NCBI GenBank assembly: GCA_025356095.1
Contig: JANXUR010000022.1
Coordinates: 1-37,653, forward strand
Length of the DNA stretch: 37,653 nucleotides
Source: Acidobacteriaceae bacterium
GTDB lineage: Bacteria; Acidobacteriota; Terriglobia; Terriglobales; Acidobacteriaceae
Reading direction: 5' to 3'
Numbering within the stretch: the first letter of the stretch is position 1; each line of letters opens with the position of its first letter. Made by a program: the position numbers and the translations under genes. Below, in pieces: positions 4,351-37,653 of this stretch. The notes below the pieces were generated by a model that was given only the letters and a program-made list of their open reading frames with translations, had not been told where the DNA came from and did no database searches.

Positions 4351-5505
4351 CTATTCCCACATATAGTAAAAACCCGGATGCCGTTCTTCTAATAGTTGAT
4401 GCGCCTGAGCAGGCAGAAGGTTGGATAGATCGCCATTCACTACGTCCAGCAGCGTGCGGCGCTTTTCACTGGGGCGCACGATATTCGGCTCGCCCGTTAT
4501 CCCCACCTCTTTGGCTGTGGCCTTCACCACGCCGTCAAAGTCTGAGATGCCATCAATCAGGCCGAGCGCCTTGGATTGCTCACCCGTCCACACCCGCCCG
4601 GTCGCCAGATCCGCCACCGTCTTTTCGTTCAGCTTGCGGCCATCGGCCACGGCATGGATAAACTGCCCCTTCATGTTGTCAATCAGGCCCTGCATGTAGG
4701 CGACTTCATTGGGCGTCAGGTCACGGGTGGGAGTGCCAGTGTCCTTAAACTCGCCGGTCTTGATAATTACCGACTTCAGTTTGGCCCACTTCAGCAGGTC
4801 GCCGTAGTTGATCCATTCAGTAATCACGCCAATCGAGCCGACGATGGAGCCGTTGTCCGCGTAGATTTTGTTGGTGCCAGAGGCGACATAGTACGCGCCT
4901 GACGCGCCCACCGACTCAATCGAGGTGACGATAAGCTTCTTCTTCTCATCGCGGATGCGGCGCACCGCGCGGTACAGTTCCTCAGACGCAGCCACTCCGC
5001 CACCGGGTGAATTCACGTGCAGGATGATGGCCTTCACCGAGTCATCATCGGCATAACTCTTAAGCTGCTCGCTCACCTGCGTGGGGCTAAGGATGACGCC
5101 GGTCAAATCCACCACAGCGATTTTGCCGCCAAAACTGAGGCTGGCACTGTGCTTGCCATCTTCTTGCAAGGTCAGATACACCAGCGTGAACACCGCCAGC
5201 ACAAACAACGCGAAGGCAGCACCACCCGCCAACAGCCACACCCACAGGCGCGACTTTTTCGCAGGCGGCGGCGCGGGCGGAGCATAGCTTACCGACGCGG
5301 CAAACACGGGCGGAGGCGGCGGTGGGGGCGGCGCAAATACTGCCGCAGGCGCCTCATGCGGAGGATAGGCTTCCGGGTTGCCCGATGACTCCGGCACGTT
5401 TGATACTTTCGACTCATTTGCTTGGTTTGCTTGGTTTGCTTGGTTCGCTTGGTTCGCTTCGTTCGCTTCGTTCGCTTCGTTCGGCGGCAGAATACTATCG
5501 GACAT
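4351..5505 (-). CDS. sppA: Signal peptide peptidase SppA, short form (S49 family)
   Basis: Membrane-anchored serine protease that degrades cleaved signal peptides and other membrane-embedded fragments. The 384-residue protein has a low-complexity cytosolic N-terminus, a single transmembrane helix at 86-113, then one S49 domain facing outward. The catalytic Ser is S202 in GASGAYY and the general base Lys is K254 in GEFKD; the 52-residue spacing matches the Ser/Lys dyad of Bacillus-type short SppA. Residues 9-31 are a tandem NEA/NQA repeat and 59-66 a run of eight prolines; neither belongs to the family core. AAGGTG lies seven bases before the ATG. The export operon starts upstream on the same strand with a 72-base gap. 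Confidence 0.93.
   Translation of the reverse strand: MSDSILPPNEANEANEANQANQANQANQANESKVSNVPESSGNPEAYPPHEAPAAVFAPPPPPPPPVFAASVSYAPPAPPPAKKSRLWVWLLAGGAAFALFVLAVFTLVYLTLQEDGKHSASLSFGGKIAVVDLTGVILSPTQVSEQLKSYADDDSVKAIILHVNSPGGGVAASEELYRAVRRIRDEKKKLIVTSIESVGASGAYYVASGTNKIYADNGSIVGSIGVITEWINYGDLLKWAKLKSVIIKTGEFKDTGTPTRDLTPNEVAYMQGLIDNMKGQFIHAVADGRKLNEKTVADLATGRVWTGEQSKALGLIDGISDFDGVVKATAKEVGITGEPNIVRPSEKRRTLLDVVNGDLSNLLPAQAHQLLEERHPGFYYMWE
5413..5481 (-). repeat. In-frame 9-bp tandem repeat in sppA
   Basis: Seven full and one partial 9-base units encode Asn-Glu-Ala three times, then Asn-Gln-Ala four times, then Asn-Glu. The units are near-identical in DNA, which suggests recent slippage. Length changes by whole units keep the reading frame, so alleles would differ only in the cytosolic tail. 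Confidence 0.9.
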
Positions 5506-5577: not shown

Positions 5578-6690
5578 CTAAAGCGTCCGCCGGAACAGAG
5601 GCACGGCGAGCAGGCCGGCCACTAGCGCAAAGCCGCCGAGGAAGGCGAAGTCCGGCCATACCGCTGCCCAACCGGCGTCCTTTAAAAGCAGGGATTTCAA
5701 CGAGTGCACTGCATAAGTGAAGGGATCCACCCGGGCAATCCATTGCAGCCATGTGGGGAAAGCCTGAATGGGATAGATCGCGCCGCTGGGAAAGAACAGT
5801 AGCGTGTTCAGAATGCCGAAGACCGCACGCGGCACCAAGGGGTCATCCACCCGCACCAACAGCAAGAACATCATGGTGTTAAACGCGGCGGAGATGCAGA
5901 CGATAGCGGTGAGCAATAGCAGCAGCTTCGAGGGGTCGAAAATACTACTTACCCCAGCCAGCAGCGAACCAATAATCGTAATCGTGATCCCAGACATTAC
6001 TGCCTTCACTGCCCCGGCAATGTTGAGTCCGAAGATCAGCTCGAACTTGCTAATCGGCGTCACCAGATAGCCTTCGTGGACGCCTCGGGCCTTGTCGTCA
6101 ATATATAAAATTCCGCCACCAATCATCACTGAGACAAACATAGCCAACGCAATCGAGCCCGGCAGTAAGTACTTCATGTACTCAATGTAAGGATATAGTT
6201 CCACAATCTCCAGCACCGATTGCTCTAGAAGACGCGGTTCAATTTGTGGCTGGTTCAACGCCTCGACGATCTGGCCAACATGGTCGGTAAAGGTCGAGCT
6301 CATGAAGTTATCAGAATTATCTACAATCAGCGCGATACGGGGATGGTTTTTTTCGTAAACCCGGCGAGAGTAGTCTGGTGGAATCACAATCGCACCTTGT
6401 ATCTTCCCGATGCGGACGTCTTCCATCGCGGCGCGTTCGTTGTCGTAAGTAAGCGGCACAAAGGTACGCAGGTTGGCGCGCACAGAATCCACGGCCTCAT
6501 GGATGCGCAGCGCTTGGGTGCCCCGGTCTTGATCTACAATGCCTATTTTTGCGTCGCGAATCTTGCCGCCAAACGCATTGCCCAGCACAATCAGTTGCAC
6601 CAGCGGAAAGACCATGGACATCATCATAAGAAACGGCGAGCGGAAGAACTTCCGCATCTCCCGCTCGATGATGGCAAACATCCGGTTCAT
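5578..6690 (-). CDS. ABC-2 type transporter permease
   Basis: Inner-membrane permease of a drug/lipid-type exporter, resembling the YbhS/YbhR/YhhJ group. The 370-residue protein starts with a short cytosolic helix, a first membrane segment at about 20-38, a long extracytoplasmic domain (about 45-175), and a cluster of about five membrane helices to the C-terminus. This is the usual ABC-2 layout with the large loop after helix 1. It lies 69 bases after the ATPase gene and is the last gene of the operon. AGGAG lies three bases before the ATG. Only one permease is present, so the transporter probably works with a permease homodimer. The substrate is unknown. Confidence 0.9.
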   Translation of the reverse strand: MNRMFAIIEREMRKFFRSPFLMMMSMVFPLVQLIVLGNAFGGKIRDAKIGIVDQDRGTQALRIHEAVDSVRANLRTFVPLTYDNERAAMEDVRIGKIQGAIVIPPDYSRRVYEKNHPRIALIVDNSDNFMSSTFTDHVGQIVEALNQPQIEPRLLEQSVLEIVELYPYIEYMKYLLPGSIALAMFVSVMIGGGILYIDDKARGVHEGYLVTPISKFELIFGLNIAGAVKAVMSGITITIIGSLLAGVSSIFDPSKLLLLLTAIVCISAAFNTMMFLLLVRVDDPLVPRAVFGILNTLLFFPSGAIYPIQAFPTWLQWIARVDPFTYAVHSLKSLLLKDAGWAAVWPDFAFLGGFALVAGLLAVPLFRRTL

Positions 6691-32838: not shown

Positions 32839-32922
32839 TAGGCCGGAGATTAGGCCGGAGATTAGGCCGGAGACTAGGCAGGAGACTAGGCTAGAGAATC
32901 GGCTGGAGTATAGGCTGGAGTA
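32839..32922 (+). repeat. Seven 12-bp tandem units after the lipid-kinase-like gene, most carrying an in-frame TAG
   Basis: Consensus TAGGCCGGAGAT. Units start at 32839, 32851, 32863, 32875, 32887, 32899 and 32911, all in the same frame as the gene's own TAG at 32815. Six of seven begin TAG; the unit at 32899 begins TCG. A TGA follows at 32923. Confidence 0.93.
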
Positions 32923-33004
32923 TGAGGAATCCCGCACTCCCCCTGCGGAACCTCGCCCGGAATTCGGTGTCTATCTCTAGGCAGCGTGCGCGGTTCGCGG
33001 CGGT

Positions 33005-33043
33005 TGAGCATTATTGCTGAGCATTATTGCTGAGCACGATTAA
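33005..33043 (+). repeat. Three 13-bp tandem units before a small membrane protein gene
   Basis: Two exact copies of TGAGCATTATTGC and a third diverging after TGAGCA. Because 13 is not a multiple of three, the three TGA triplets fall in all three frames. Confidence 0.9.
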
Positions 33044-33083
33044 GTATTGTTGAGTATCCTAGAAGTCGAAAGAAACCCACGCC

Positions 33084-33542
33084 ATGACCACTGTTCTGAT
33101 GGATGCCCCGTTCTACGACGCTGCGAAAGTCCGGCGGCGCAAAGTTCGCTTCGCACAAATCCTGGGCGCGATCCTGCTGGTCGCTGCTGTGGTGTGGTGG
33201 TTCCGCTTTTGGCCGCAGGAACACGTGGTGAATCAGTTCCTCACCGCCTGCGAGCAGCAGCAGTACGAATCCGCCTACGGCATTTGGATGGCCGACCCCG
33301 ACTGGCAGAAGCATCCCGAAAAATACGCTCGCTACACCTTCGACAACTTCCACAAAGATTGGGGTGGCGGCGGCGAGCTTGGCCTTATCCGCTCGCACAA
33401 GATTGAAACCTCGGAACGACCCGAGGGTAGCACCACCGGCGTCGTGGTGATCGTCACTGTAAACGGACGCAACGAAAAAGCTCACCTCTTCGTGGCCGAC
33501 AGCGACAAATCCATCAGTTTCTGGCGCGATTTCTTGTATTAG
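33084..33542 (+). CDS. Small single-pass membrane protein, unknown function
   Basis: 152 residues: a basic cytosolic N-terminus (AAKVRRRKVRFA), one membrane helix (about 25-41, ILGAILLVAAVVWWF), then an extracytoplasmic domain of about 105 residues with the pattern VVNQFLTACEQQQYESAYGIWMADPDWQKHP and a following beta-rich half. The shape resembles NTF2-like/DUF4864-type small domains that follow a membrane anchor, and I recall similar proteins in Acidobacteriota, but no function can be given. Only a weak GAAAGAAA precedes the ATG. It converges with fabD. Confidence 0.75.
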   Translation: MTTVLMDAPFYDAAKVRRRKVRFAQILGAILLVAAVVWWFRFWPQEHVVNQFLTACEQQQYESAYGIWMADPDWQKHPEKYARYTFDNFHKDWGGGGELGLIRSHKIETSERPEGSTTGVVVIVTVNGRNEKAHLFVADSDKSISFWRDFLY

Positions 33543-33615
33543 CAACATCGGTAGCTGCTCCGTCAGTTGCCTACTAAGACTCGGGAATCACAGTTGCAAT
33601 CGCCGCCACAATCAC

Positions 33616-34623
33616 CTAAGGAGCCACCTCGGCAGTCGCCGTCAAGGCCGCCAGCGTCTTCTGCAGCGAGGCTGGATCAGCCACATTCAGCGCCTTCTGT
33701 GCGCGGTCTATCTGGCGCATTAAACCGCAAAGTACTTTGCCGGGGCCTAACTCTATGTAAGTGGTCACTCCCTTTGCGATCAGGACGCGGATGGATTCAT
33801 CCCAGCGCACCGCACCTGTAACCTGACGGATCAGCGCGTCGCGAGCGGCACCACCAGTTGTGATGGCAGCCGCATCCACGTTGCAAAGAATCGGTAGGCC
33901 CGGGTCGCTGAAGGGCAAGCCCATCAGATCCGCCGCCAGGCGATCTTGCGCGGGCTGCATCAGCGCACTGTGGAAGGGTGCGCTGACCGTCAGCAGTTTC
34001 GCCCGCTTGGCCCCGCGGTCGGTAGCCAGTTGCGCGGCACGTTCCACAGCGCCCTTGTGGCCGGAGATCACGATCTGATCCGGCGAGTTGATATTCGCGG
34101 GCTGGCAAACCTCGCTTTCTGAAAACGCTGCGCCACTGTCGCCGCTCGGCACAATTGCCGCGTCGGCGCACACCTGGCGCAGAGGCTCAAGCTCCATACC
34201 CAGCACGGCGGCCATCGCTCCCATCCCTACCGGCACAGCTTCCTGCATATACCTGCCACGATTCCGCACCGTGCGCACTGCGTCGGCGAACCCAATCGTG
34301 CCCGCAGCCACGTTGGCGGAATACTCGCCCAAGCTGTGTCCGGCAACGAAACTAGCGGCAATCCCATGCTGCGCCGCTGCTTCCACAAACACCCGCCACG
34401 CCGCAATGGAAACAGTCAAAATCGCGGGCTGCGTAATCTCAGTGAGCGTCAGTTGATCTTCCGGGCCGTCGAAGCACAGTTGCGACAGCTTATAGCCCAG
34501 CGCTTCATCGGCCTCGTCAAACGTTTGCTGCGCGATGGGGAATGCCTCGGCCAGTTCTTTGCCCATGCCAACGGCCTGGGAGCCTTGTCCGGGAAACAGG
34601 AATGCAAGATTTGGGGTTGACAT
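33616..34623 (-). CDS. fabD: Malonyl-CoA:ACP transacylase
   Basis: Transfers malonyl groups to acyl carrier protein for fatty acid synthesis. The 335-residue protein has the FPGQGSQAVGMG opening (10-21), nucleophile S97 in GHSLGEYSA, active-site His H218 in VSAPFHSALM, and the NRGRYMQ segment with the carboxylate-binding Arg. GAGGA lies about nine bases before the ATG. It belongs to the plsX-type cluster but is separated from plsX by the NYN gene. Confidence 0.97.
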   Translation of the reverse strand: MSTPNLAFLFPGQGSQAVGMGKELAEAFPIAQQTFDEADEALGYKLSQLCFDGPEDQLTLTEITQPAILTVSIAAWRVFVEAAAQHGIAASFVAGHSLGEYSANVAAGTIGFADAVRTVRNRGRYMQEAVPVGMGAMAAVLGMELEPLRQVCADAAIVPSGDSGAAFSESEVCQPANINSPDQIVISGHKGAVERAAQLATDRGAKRAKLLTVSAPFHSALMQPAQDRLAADLMGLPFSDPGLPILCNVDAAAITTGGAARDALIRQVTGAVRWDESIRVLIAKGVTTYIELGPGKVLCGLMRQIDRAQKALNVADPASLQKTLAALTATAEVAP

Positions 34624-34664
34624 GATGATGAGTTCCTCGCGGAAAAATACAGATTGACCTGCAG

Positions 34665-35498
34665 CTAAACCCCCAGGATTGCTTTCAAGGTCTTCCTCAC
34701 CTGAATCTTTTCCTTGGCATCAAGGGGCCTGTTTAGGACAGCACGTGTTTGTGCAAGCAAACGCCCGTCATGCTCCGATGGGACGCCCGTTCCCGTTTGG
34801 AGGGCGGCCTTCAGCGAAACACGCTCTTCGTCCCGCAAGGCGTCGAGATAGAGCCTAACTTGCACCTCAATCGTGGGTGTGACGGAGGAGGTCGGATTGA
34901 TGGGCGCTGGAGAAGCCTGCGAAGATGCGGGAGGCACTGGCGTCGCAAGTTGGGTGGGCGTGGCAGGTTTTACCGTTAGGAAACTTAGGACATCCGATCT
35001 GGGAACCTCCGTGACCGTGTCTGATTCCTGCCGGAGGGTCGCCGAACCGCTGGCACCTTCGATGGTCAAGAGGTGGACGACGGTCCCATATTCCTGAGCG
35101 AGCTCAACGCCGATGCGGAGATCCTCATCTCCTCCTAACAGAACAGCATCGGAAATAACACGGATTCTAGACAGTCCGCTAATATCCGTGATGATCTTAC
35201 CGTCAACGCCTTTTTGCTCCCCGAATCTATTCAGCACTCCGAGGCGGAGCTTGACGTAGTCGCTCGACGCTAGGATTAGATGGTCCGTGGTCAATCGACC
35301 AGAAGGAGCGGCATCGTACCAATAGATGCGAAGCAGCTCTACCTGAGAAAGTGCTTTCGCCTTTGTTTTTAGATAACTAAGTACCAAAGGAATGTCCAAG
35401 CTGGTGTCCGGTCGTCTGGTTCCGTCTACGCCCGAAACGGACCTCGCACCGCCTGCGTAAAGGTAACCGGCATCCACAAAAACCGCCACTCGATCCAT
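34665..35498 (-). CDS. NYN-domain (PIN-like, LabA/DUF88-type) putative ribonuclease
   Basis: Predicted metal-dependent RNase of 277 residues. The N-terminal NYN domain (about 1-165) shows the acidic site: D9 in VFVDAGYLY, the Asp in QKGVDGKIITDI and Asp/Glu in LLGGDEDLRIGVELAQEYG. A Pro/Thr/Ser/Ala-rich linker (about 185-220) leads to a C-terminal helical domain (about 220-277) with no recognised motif, perhaps a partner or RNA-binding unit. ATG 35498 is preferred over GTG 35499-35501 because GGAG is then four bases upstream. Codons such as AGA, AGG and CTA are common, unlike its neighbours, and the gene splits plsX from fabD, so it looks inserted. Confidence 0.88.
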   Translation of the reverse strand: MDRVAVFVDAGYLYAGGARSVSGVDGTRRPDTSLDIPLVLSYLKTKAKALSQVELLRIYWYDAAPSGRLTTDHLILASSDYVKLRLGVLNRFGEQKGVDGKIITDISGLSRIRVISDAVLLGGDEDLRIGVELAQEYGTVVHLLTIEGASGSATLRQESDTVTEVPRSDVLSFLTVKPATPTQLATPVPPASSQASPAPINPTSSVTPTIEVQVRLYLDALRDEERVSLKAALQTGTGVPSEHDGRLLAQTRAVLNRPLDAKEKIQVRKTLKAILGV

Positions 35499-35513
35499 CA
35501 CTCTCCATGCCCA

Positions 35514-35540
35514 CGAAAATAAGGCCCTCTTTCGAGGGCC
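35514..35540 (-). terminator. Intrinsic terminator between plsX and the NYN gene
   Basis: On the minus strand GGCCCTC and GAGGGCC form a perfect 7-bp stem with a GAAA loop, followed by TTATTTT. It lies about 80 bases after plsX and about 15 bases before the NYN start codon. Confidence 0.85.
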
Positions 35541-35589
35541 TGCCTACGTAGTCGCTCCGAAACTAGGCGGTAGCGGAACGAACAGCTTT

Positions 35590-35618
35590 AGAATACCCGA
35601 TGGTGACGCAATTTGCAA
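35590..35618 (-). promoter_or_regulatory. Candidate promoter for the NYN gene, upstream of the terminator
   Basis: TTGCAA (35613-35618) and TATTCT (35590-35595) with exactly 17 bases between. Transcription would start near 35583, giving a leader of about 85 bases that contains the terminator. Confidence 0.5.
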
Positions 35619-35621
35619 GCG

Positions 35622-36659
35622 TCAGGTATTGCCTAGGGCGCCGACTGCGGCCACAGTGTGCTGCCGCACCAGCTCTTCCGCAATCTTTTGGTTCACGCCA
35701 TGCTCCACAAACTCGCGCGTCACCCGAATGGCATTCTTGATGGCGTTTGCATTGGATGAGCCGTGGCCAATCACGCATGCACCCTTCACCCCCAGCAGCG
35801 GGGCACCACCATACTCGGTGTGGTCCATGGTCTTGCGGAATTCGCCGAAAGCGTTACGCAGCATAAAGCTGTTGATCTGCCGCAGCAAGGTCGCCTTCAG
35901 CGACTTCTTTAACTGATAGCGCACCAACCGGGCCACGCCTTCACTGGTCTTCAGCGCGACGTTGCCCACAAAGCCGTCGCACACCAGCACGTCCACCTTG
36001 CCGGTGTAGATGTCGCGGCCTTCCACGTTGCCAATGAAATTGATTGGCAGTTGCTTCAGCAACGCAAACGTCTGGCGCGTCAACTCGTTGCCTTTGGTCT
36101 CTTCTTCGCCAATGGAAAGCAGCCCCACCCGTGGGCGCTCCATGCCAAACATCCCGCGGCAATACGTCTCGCCCATAATAGCGAACTGCTCGAGGTTGCT
36201 GGGCTTGCAATCTACATTGGCACCAACGTCCAGCAGAATCGCAGCGGCTCCGGTCGCGGTCGGGAATACCGCCGCCAATGCCGGACGCTCCACCCCCGGC
36301 AGCGTACCCAGCACCATCTTGGCAGTGGCCATGGCTGCGCCGGTGTTGCCAGCGGTAATAAAGCCCTGCGCCTTGCCATCCCGCACTAACCGCAGACCCA
36401 CTCGCATAGAGGAGTCGCGCTTGGCGCGCACCGCCTGTGCGGCTTTGTCGTCCATGGTAATGGCTTCGCTGGCGTGGACAATTTCTATGCGCGGGTCGTC
36501 TGCCGCGCCGTGGCGATCCAACGCCAGACGCACCTCAGGCTCGCGGCCCACCAGCAGAATTTTCACGTCCTGCTCGCGCACCGCTGCCAGCACGCCCTCA
36601 ATCTCTGGCTTGGGCGCGCGGTCCGATCCCATCGCATCTACTGCAATGATGGTTGGCAT
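35622..36659 (-). CDS. plsX: Phosphate acyltransferase PlsX
   Basis: Converts acyl-ACP to acyl phosphate, the first donor for phospholipid synthesis. The 345-residue protein begins [19 protein letters not shown] and carries the [10 protein letters not shown] region, a GANVDCKP segment and the [22 protein letters not shown] ending of the family. It lies 19 bases after rpmF in the common yceD-rpmF-plsX order, so cotranscription is near certain. No clear ribosome binding site precedes its ATG. Confidence 0.97.
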
Positions 36660-36678
36660 TCAGTTTTAAGGGATCTGG

Positions 36679-36864
36679 TTACTTGCTCTCGCCGACCGCG
36701 ATCACTTCGCGGCCCTTGTAGTGGCCACACTTCGCGCAGGCGCGGTGGGGCAGCTTCTTCTCTTTGCAGTTGGGGCACTCGGCCATGGTGGGCTGGCTCA
36801 AAAAGTCGTGAGCGCGGCGGTTGCCGGTGCGCGCCTTGGAATGGCGCCGTTTAGGATTAGGCAT
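36679..36864 (-). CDS. rpmF: 50S ribosomal protein L32
   Basis: Large-subunit ribosomal protein, 61 residues: MPNPKRRHSKARTGNRRAHDFL followed by a four-Cys zinc ribbon (CPNC and CAKC). ATG 36864 is supported by AGGAG seven bases upstream; a longer open frame to 36936 would add 24 unrelated residues. The Cys-containing form is the zinc-binding paralogue type. Confidence 0.97.
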   Translation of the reverse strand: MPNPKRRHSKARTGNRRAHDFLSQPTMAECPNCKEKKLPHRACAKCGHYKGREVIAVGESK

Positions 36865-36935
36865 GACTGAATCTCCTGATGCCGGAAGGTGACTGGAACT
36901 TCGTTCCACTCCCCACAAAACCCGGCCAAAACACA

Positions 36936-36977
36936 AAATGTTTACTTCTGAATCCTTACTTCTGAACGCTTACTTCT
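36936..36977 (-). repeat. Three 14-bp tandem units over the end of the yceD-type gene
   Basis: Minus-strand units AGAAGTAAGCGTTC, AGAAGTAAGGATTC and AGAAGTAAACATTT. The TAA in the first is the gene's stop; the other two fall 14 and 28 bases on, so TAA occurs once in each frame. Confidence 0.9.
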
Positions 36978-37527
36978 TAAATTTCGCTTGCAACTCCTGC
37001 AGTGTTGCCCAGCGCGCATCCACTGGCTTTTCGCAGGTGCAAGTTTCCCGGTTGCGATCTACCCCGCAAGTCGGACATAGCCCTTTACAATCCTCGCCGC
37101 ATAACACCCGCAGCGGCAGGTCGAGCAGAATCTGCTCACGCAGTACTTCGGCCAGTTCTAAACCTTCGCCGCCGTAGAAGCTGATTTCGCTTTCCGCGCC
37201 GCTTAGTTCCAATTCTGGCGACTTCGCCTTGCCGCTCAGCGAAGGTTCCGGACGGTACAGCAAGTCGTAGTCGCGATGGATGTCGCGCTCCACCGGCTTG
37301 AGACACCGCGCACAGGGCATTTCCACCCGGGTCGCGAGCTTGCCGTGCAGACGAACATCCTGCAAAACCAAACCCTTACCATGATGTTCTTCAAACAATT
37401 CGGCGCGGCCCGTCGTCTTCACGGGAGCCACGAGTCGTCCGTCCGAGCCTAAATCTACGGCTGCGGCGGGCAACTCCTCCTCAAAATCAAGCGGCTCTAG
37501 TTCCAGCTCGCGGATGGTAATCAACAT
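36970..37527 (-). CDS. yceD: YceD/DUF177-family protein
   Basis: Conserved protein found before rpmF and linked to 23S rRNA accumulation in other bacteria. The 185-residue protein has a beta-rich N-terminal half with MPCARCLKPVERD, and a C-terminal zinc-ribbon-like cluster (LCGEDCKGLCPTCGVDRNRETCTC), the family's Cys-rich end. GGAGG lies about 12 bases before the ATG. It is the first visible gene of the yceD-rpmF-plsX cluster; the 126 bases upstream to the window edge contain no confident promoter. Confidence 0.93.
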   Translation of the reverse strand: MLITIRELELEPLDFEEELPAAAVDLGSDGRLVAPVKTTGRAELFEEHHGKGLVLQDVRLHGKLATRVEMPCARCLKPVERDIHRDYDLLYRPEPSLSGKAKSPELELSGAESEISFYGGEGLELAEVLREQILLDLPLRVLCGEDCKGLCPTCGVDRNRETCTCEKPVDARWATLQELQAKFKK

Positions 37528-37653
37528 GGGCGAACCCGCGCCTCCAGCATTTCAGTTGCAGTAGCCCCAGCCAAACGGACGAACCGGGGTGCGGGGCCCA
37601 CGCCGCACTTCAAGGTAGCGTAAGCACTTGAGGAAGCAATAGTTAAGGATAGC

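Follow-up and report, generated by a model that had tools for sequence, protein, structure and literature searches.

The locus described here raises the question why a gene for a NYN-domain ribonuclease sits between plsX and fabD, and why it stands directly behind a hairpin that resembles a transcription terminator. NYN nucleases are common across bacteria; for most of them we know of no described role. We analysed a stretch of 37,653 nt from an Acidobacteriaceae bacterium (contig JANXUR010000022.1), called the window in the following, together with loci of homologous genes, which are named by handles such as L039 where they have to be told apart.

The NYN gene between plsX and fabD

The elements concerned all lie on the minus strand of the window:

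35622-36659, minus strand: plsX, the upstream flank of the inserted cassette; its stop codon ends at 35622
35613-35618, minus strand: -35-like hexamer TTGCAA, 3 nt past the plsX stop codon
35590-35595, minus strand: -10-like hexamer TATTCT, spacer 17; its end lies 91 nt upstream of the ATG
35515-35583, minus strand: predicted short leader RNA of about 69-70 nt; the 5' end is placed where blastn similarity to the L039 cassette starts
35552-35581, minus strand: stem-loop P1, 8 bp plus an inner 2 bp, from folding; homologues show the same layout with two-sided changes
35522-35541, minus strand: terminator-like hairpin T, 8 bp with a GAAA loop, from sequence scan and folding
35515-35521, minus strand: U-rich tail UAUUUUC 3' of T, from the sequence
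35503-35506, minus strand: likely Shine-Dalgarno site GGAG, by eye
34665-35498, minus strand: NYN-domain ribonuclease gene, 277 aa, from ORF and Pfam; domains predicted
33616-34623, minus strand: fabD, the downstream flank; start at 34623; sole match in the genome

The first-pass annotation of this DNA had described a hairpin with a GAAA loop and a TTATTTT tail ahead of the NYN gene, between plsX and fabD. This is confirmed by the sequence, except that the stem comprises 8 pairs instead of 7, 6 of them G-C (AGGCCCTC-GAAA-GAGGGCCT, 35541-35522). The hairpin is directly followed by TATTTTCG, with the tail of T given as UAUUUUCG, and its stem ends 23 nt before the ATG at 35498; a GTG at 35501 is a possible alternative start. 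Both possible promoters lie upstream of the terminator-like hairpin, as had been stated. The hexamers TTGCAA (35618-35613) and TATTCT (35595-35590) precede T and reach 8 of 12 consensus matches, and the pair is therefore absent from the list of our promoter scan, which used a threshold of 9 of 12. Some readthrough of T is needed for production of the NYN protein. The deviating codon use of the gene is in good agreement with the earlier description as well: its GC3 of 0.578 is the lowest among the 21 window ORFs of at least 200 aa (mean 0.687, sd 0.038).

The gap between plsX and fabD measures 998 nt here and contains one complete cassette. From the 54 relatives with a plsX match, 29 plsX loci were read, and none of these has the order plsX-NYN-fabD. 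Within the DNA examined, fabD lies downstream of plsX in 24 of the 29 loci. In 21 of these the two genes are at most 160 nt apart, too close for a NYN gene to fit in between (L037 was left out of the gap sizes); the other five loci have no fabD there within the DNA examined. NYN homologue and plsX are found on different contigs in G005, G006, G010 and G030. Insertion of the cassette between plsX and fabD in this genome is the best explanation. Judged from gene order, the plsX/fabD setting is incidental, because relatives keep plsX and fabD adjacent and NYN homologues sit elsewhere. The idea of an attenuator with conditional readthrough, put forward in the first-pass annotation, is partly supported: the tie between leader and gene and the need for some readthrough hold, and it is incomplete in that the tie is not local to plsX and fabD. 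A different reading frame, of DinB type by eye, occupies a plsX-fabD gap of 647 nt in one relative (L022); given this frame, the site may accept insertions.

For fabD the insertion has a consequence. No hairpin was found between NYN and fabD in the window, so the module shares transcription with fabD here, and together with the single fabD match in the genome this implies that either T leaks or a promoter lies between T and fabD. No sigma-70-like site between T and fabD is listed on the minus strand, which excludes only sites reaching the threshold of 9 of 12.

The window protein matches the Pfam family NYN (PF01936) with E = 1.3e-8 and 35.9 bits, above the gathering score of 24.2, and all 21 members of our protein alignment A6 match this family at E <= 0.1. 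An AlphaFold2 model (pLDDT 89) comprises a confident NYN fold (residues 1-173 approximately), a low-confidence linker (192-205) and a four-helix C-terminal domain (about 206-277). Structural comparison of the NYN part gave the NYN domain of mouse MARF1 (5yaa; Z 17.3, 147 residues, 2.8 A), VPA0982 (2qip; Z 17.0, 151 residues, 3.1 A) and human MARF1 (Z 16.7), and the next row has a Z of 8.2. Residues D9, D99, D105, D124 and D126 are invariant in 21 sequences, and members of this set are putative catalytic residues. With a modelled PIN-like fold and a conserved acidic site, the protein is assigned to PF01936 and is likely a ribonuclease. It shares fold and acidic residues with MARF1 NYN and VPA0982 and differs from both in its additional C-terminal domain, which has no clear match, and in the RNA leader of its gene.

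The C-terminal domain alone has no Foldseek match at E <= 0.001 among the families listed. A likeness to the BEN4 domain of Bend3 or to the end of GatB was considered and dismissed as too weak, with a best Z of 5.4 (end of GatB, 60 residues, 3.0 A). In L043 (8001-9443), a leaderless relative from Dehalococcoidia, this domain is seemingly repeated about three times, by eye. The window protein matches the phage family phrog_5783 (E = 1.8e-7), for which the function is listed as unknown in a library of proteins only, without an RNA part. Assignment to a known defence protein failed, as PADLOC has no match for the window protein; seven homologues gave weak partial HEC-09 matches in four cases, with the NYN model in one of these four. 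NCBIfam has no match for the window protein.

A structured leader ahead of NYN homologues

Within the window, the leader stands out from chance to a varying degree. A loose terminator scan listed 3 sites on both strands of 5.65 kb, which is not above chance (6.3 in shuffles). Folding of a 152-nt region gave a z-score of -2.00, and the 70-nt leader alone folds at -29.6 kcal/mol (z -3.38), with 2 of 200 shuffles equally good.

The homologues provide a much clearer picture. NYN homologues at other chromosomal places, on plasmids and on viral contigs carry a leader of the same layout, i.e., a promoter-like site, an RNA of about 70 nt with P1, the terminator-like hairpin T, and then the NYN gene. 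This layout occurs in 18 of 19 IMG/VR loci (the exception is L074), on two Sinorhizobium and two Azospirillum plasmids and in genomes of several groups. The arrangement of hairpin and Shine-Dalgarno site, which the first-pass annotation had proposed to look for in homologues, is indeed shared by them: hairpins with at least 8 bp and at least 6 G-C pairs within 70 nt upstream of the start precede 41 of 45 NYN genes, as opposed to 7 of 265 other ORFs of at least 120 aa from 26 loci, and 3 of 26 window ORFs. The 45 leaders of this control include L074 and the variants, and the near-duplicates L064, L065 and L070 were left out. For the promoter and tail counts, L074, which has no leader, was dropped in addition to these duplicates, such that 44 leaders including the one of the window remain. 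In the 85 nt upstream of them, the best promoter-like score has a mean of 8.61 of 12 versus 7.10 in mononucleotide shuffles, and a score of at least 9 is reached by 22 of 44 leaders versus 5.9% of shuffles. For 35 of 44 leaders, a distance of 83-104 nt separates the end of the -10-like hexamer from the start codon; the limits of the region scanned contribute to this range. A crude check for leader peptides found any ATG at all between -100 and -35 in 22 of 48 leaders.

We built covariance models for this leader. R1 was derived from 11 leaders of one viral subgroup (alignment A3) and has 27 matches in 426 kb of 42 loci, 13 of which represent the subgroup itself and 14 lie outside it at E <= 0.012, one of them being the upstream copy in L076. 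With R2, trained on these 27 rows, 44 of 56 loci give a match at E <= 0.0022, with 45 leaders in total. Thereby 18 held-out leaders are recovered, with E from 2e-15 to 0.0022 in 482 kb; one of them, L126, scores exactly like the training row L077 and is apparently identical. Matches on the other strand than the gene re-read the T hairpin and were excluded from the leader count. There are 12 loci without an R2 match at this threshold: the window, L039, L128, L132, L133, L043-L046, L074, L140 and L142. The leaders of the window, L039 and L128 read alike, and L132 and L133 are variants in which two small hairpins with similar CCAAA loops precede the terminator-like hairpin, by eye. One stop codon is reported inside each of the NYN matches of L132 and L133.

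In three whole plasmids, R1 matches at leader sites only (E <= 0.05). Its two best matches in 385 alphaproteobacterial genomes both precede NYN genes, namely L041, from the search centre's own genome, and the new G583/L094 (E = 5.6e-7). Weak matches in 13 alphaproteobacterial genomes (E from 4e-4 to 9e-3), of which chance alone would give about 4, lack a NYN gene nearby according to tblastn and were discarded as chance terminators. Further weak matches without NYN are G506 (E = 0.0096), G504 (E = 0.03) and L063 at position 6679 (E = 0.024).

Base pairing in the leader is conserved through sequence change. In A3, aligned by MAFFT alone, 99.6% of cells are paired and two-sided changes occur in 4 of 21 pairs; A4, with 24 distinct rows, has 97.7% paired cells and such changes in 16 of 21 pairs. 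For the 41 distinct leaders of A7, 94.7% of cells are paired, compared to 72.8% in shuffles and 40-52% when the alignment is slid. Here, two-sided changes are found in 19 of 21 pairs, which bears out the covariation that the first-pass annotation had named as a check on the stem, and they fill 165 cells versus 46.8 in shuffles; as A4 and A7 were fitted to the model, their counts lean towards it. In the A7 tail following T, all 40 letters at the third position are U, and 33 of 41 at the fourth are A. Counted from the hairpin ends of each leader without A7, these values are T in 33 of 44 and A in 24 of 44, and position 7 has T in 38 of 44. Many members have an interrupted U-tract after T, and this could indicate either a processing site or a terminator of low strength.

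Our tools, which are concerned with secondary structure, gave no sign of a pseudoknot or of loop-distal coevolution. Rfam has no family for window positions 32900-37653 at E <= 1 and, except for one tRNA, no match at gathering scores in 12 homologue loci; the same holds for the AbiF RNA model RF03085 in this part of the window and in the 12 loci at the respective thresholds. These comparisons provide good support for a functional tie of the leader to the NYN gene, because the leader also accompanies homologous genes at other places and shows covariation in them.

Whether the window leader belongs to this family was judged separately. With the models built without it, significance is not reached. 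R1 does not list it at E <= 5, R2 assigns it 7.9 bits (E = 3.6, rank 2 in the window) and R3, a further model, 7.5 bits (E = 5.2, rank 4), in both cases at the right place and on the right strand. An R3 scan of its own genome lists three other weak places (E 0.37-0.92) and not the window leader. The nearest relative, L039 (61% protein identity), lies in a different genomic setting; for its leader, R2 yields a match at rank 1 (E = 0.041 in 3.7 kb, 11.3 bits), and R3, run with default filters, does not report it up to E = 1.

A blastn comparison of window positions 34401-36000 with L039 gives a single match, 35583-35056, which extends from the expected transcription start into the NYN gene and excludes the end of plsX. 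From P1 to T, the window and L039 agree in 60 of 68 positions (88%, two short gaps), with an alignment score of 103; 2000 shuffles have a mean of 11.2 and a maximum of 35. Coding DNA of the two is 59% identical, third positions 32%, and the P1-T segment thus appears to be under stronger constraint than the coding DNA. A control with free gaps yields no simple contrast: for the 115 nt directly ahead of NYN, the two sequences agree in 83 of 111 columns, and for unrelated upstream stretches in 72 of 101, with many gaps. We therefore rely on the P1-T identity and its shuffle test.

In a protein tree, the window protein falls into a clade of 43 (SH-aLRT 97), 40 of which have the leader, 38 according to the R2 covariance model and the window and L039 by layout only. 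The remaining three are L132 and L133 with the variant leader and L140 without a visible one. Seven of eight leaderless proteins lie outside the clade, and the leader label changes 3 times on the tree versus 9.3 times in shuffles. The window protein is grouped with L039 (support 100) and, with less certainty, with L129 (91), the leader of which is found by R2 with E = 1.1e-8. The tree is a quick, midpoint-rooted one with several long branches, and its deeper joins are uncertain. As in the other loci, the hairpins P1 and T lie between a promoter-like site and an NYN gene of the same clade. By model score alone, the window leader is a non-member; because of its layout, its similarity to L039 and the tree, it is taken to be a divergent member.

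Genomic settings of the relatives

The NYN gene is rare and scattered. It was found in 12 of 398 genomes of the family at E <= 1e-15 and in 10 of 396 genomes of the phylum at E <= 1e-10 (own genome included in both), as well as in 9 of 385 alphaproteobacterial genomes at E <= 1e-25, including G502, the source of L041. E. coli genomes have no DNA match to a viral-contig copy. In L005, the NYN frame is seemingly shifted near its start (about position 1495) with respect to the close relatives L002 and L003.

Ten maps of viral contigs, with neighbours named by eye from translations, show the NYN gene alone among phage-like genes, its surroundings being, e.g., tail genes, or replication genes on one side and terminase genes on the other. 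A hairpin 3' of NYN, in some cases with a U-rich tail, was counted, without a control, in 14 of all 23 loci scanned; within the main viral subgroup it is present in 10 of 11 loci. From their gene context, the viral-contig relatives have the look of morons, cassettes that would be expressed on their own in the lysogen. The window copy does not share this setting of a phage moron, with own promoter and terminator between phage genes.

On the Azospirillum thermophilum plasmid NZ_CP029357.1 (L076), the leader RNA is present in two copies, at 4738-4820 and 4911-4992 of L076. Both have a terminator-like hairpin, and only the second directly precedes the NYN gene. The extra RNA copy, noted about 170 nt upstream of the first, has its own hairpin and, by eye, a promoter-like site. 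Such a second copy points to a role of the RNA beyond control in cis.

The Sinorhizobium plasmids L077 and L126 carry the cassette next to an annotated RES family NAD+ phosphorylase and an Xre/MbcA/ParS antitoxin. L126 derives from pNGR234a (NC_000914.2) of Sinorhizobium fredii NGR234, where the copy lies at about 294,400-295,350. At 4001-4852 of L126, the annotation places the NYN start 207 nt into the matched frame, and the homologous start just after the leader, a TTG in the sister plasmid L077, was seemingly missed by the annotation.

Possible roles of the leader RNA

The leader is a whole conserved RNA that travels with its gene, and this agrees no less well with an RNA that acts on the protein than with an attenuator in cis. 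The relatives on plasmids and viral contigs suggest an undescribed RNA-controlled ribonuclease system that resembles RNA-based toxin-antitoxin pairs. By analogy to such pairs, we consider it slightly more likely than not that the locus is a mobile cassette of its own promoter, a structured RNA of about 70 nt with P1, a short linker and T, and an NYN ribonuclease, in which the RNA restrains the ribonuclease in the manner of type III or AbiF-like systems. This reading builds on the anatomy of the cassette, the conservation and covariation of the leader, its linkage to the gene, the scattered occurrence, and the predicted nuclease fold with its conserved acidic residues. From these we infer a course of events that leads from the transcription start and the efficiency of termination to RNA-protein binding, inhibition, toxicity and a role against phages. 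Transcription from the cassette promoter would mostly stop at T and yield the short two-hairpin RNA in excess, and a minority of transcripts would pass T and provide the mRNA of the NYN ribonuclease. The short RNA would bind the ribonuclease encoded downstream and hold it in check. Upon loss of fresh RNA, e.g., when a phage shuts off transcription, the nuclease would be freed.

Known systems resemble this cassette in part. According to the sections of PMC5086642 consulted, type III systems (ToxIN, CptIN, TenpIN) consist of one promoter, a short antitoxin RNA, a Rho-independent terminator and an endoribonuclease gene. By sequence prediction, the window and its homologues have the same order of promoter, RNA, terminator and nuclease gene. 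In contrast to the tandem repeat array of a type III antitoxin RNA, there is a single P1+T unit here, and among the loci scanned only L076 gave two RNA matches, as separate copies. Unlike the toxins ToxN, AbiQ, CptN and TenpN, the window protein has NYN as its only Pfam match and as its fold match. The type III RNA is pseudoknotted; here, secondary-structure tools show a small advantage of own over foreign loops in pairing with downstream segments.

For AbiF/RCd22 of the Clostridioides difficile prophage phi027, the sections consulted of PMC12373285 describe a promoter, an RNA of about 100 nt, a terminator and readthrough to the effector gene; the RNA ends near the terminator, is active both in cis and in trans, and is recovered together with the protein on purification. 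This RNA (Rfam abiF, RF03085) differs from the NYN leader, which has no Rfam match in the part of the window and the 12 loci scanned. AbiF is not known to be a NYN protein.

In AvcID, an RNA antitoxin lies upstream of the toxin; AvcI decays once transcription has ceased, inhibited transcription activates the toxin, and according to the authors no terminator is predicted between avcI and avcD (all from the sections consulted of PMC10511110). The AvcID toxin is a deaminase, whereas the window cassette has an NYN nuclease and a terminator-like hairpin. In a literature search over titles and abstract openings, outside subscription papers and preprints, no RNA-leader NYN module is among the matches listed, and the reference-list passages of PMC7180214 and PMC3710099 name no such NYN-RNA module.

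Control in cis only, in which T is an attenuator and the ribonuclease sets its own level by binding or cutting its leader at P1, T or the UA-containing tail, without any role in trans, is rather unlikely in our view, but it accounts for several observations. Hairpin, U-rich tail and Shine-Dalgarno site keep a constant order across homologues, the predicted NYN fold is intact, and the A7 tail with its U followed by A is unlike an uninterrupted U-tract, a pattern that is weaker when counted without A7. On the other hand, P1 is needless for an attenuator without a switch and is nevertheless kept by pairing like T. The separate RNA copy in L076 also speaks against it, and no alternative pairing was found between the P1 loop and T or the Shine-Dalgarno site. 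A switch of this kind was dismissed for lack of a signal: own P1 loops pair with the 5' arm of T at -3.30 kcal/mol against -2.81 for foreign loops (sd 2.15 kcal/mol) and with linker plus 5' arm at -3.81 against -3.63, and own loops pair worse with the linker alone.

The linkage of RNA and nuclease and the conserved architecture of P1 would also be expected if the RNA were a cofactor or guide that activates or aims the nuclease instead of inhibiting it, and the helical C-terminal domain with its weak resemblance to the end of GatB could be seen in this light. We regard this as improbable, since a Z of 5.4 is within the range of common helical arrangements, no target-like variable segment was noticed by eye, and the terminator-like hairpin as well as the order of RNA and nuclease match RNA-antitoxin operons. 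Even less credit is due to ordinary insulation, where T serves solely to terminate transcription from upstream, the 5' UTR has no role of its own and the NYN gene encodes a transferred ribonuclease of a housekeeping type. Terminator-like sites are common in the region, as the shuffles show, and the low GC3 fits a recent transfer, but this very improbable alternative conflicts with the promoter-like sites upstream of T in homologues, the covariation of P1 and T, the concentration of hairpins ahead of NYN genes, and a P1-T segment better conserved than the coding DNA between the window and L039.

Returning to the RNA that restrains its ribonuclease, a wider reading is tentative, with a chance slightly short of even: the cassettes would form a new class with an NYN (PIN-like) toxin held by a two-hairpin RNA from its own terminated leader, spread by prophages and plasmids as a defence against superinfection, and here fused to the transcription of fabD, an essential gene of fatty-acid synthesis. 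This class would span Acidobacteriota, Pseudomonadota and Gemmatimonadota, the last with one weakly scoring leader.

From a biological point of view, the window copy is a natural experiment, as a terminator-like hairpin lies between plsX and the only fabD of the genome. The covariance models built from NYN leaders can be used to find further members. A covarying RNA fixed in front of one clade of NYN genes offers a testable handle on the control of these nucleases, and the NYN module could add a new nuclease class to the RNA-regulated toxin-like systems.
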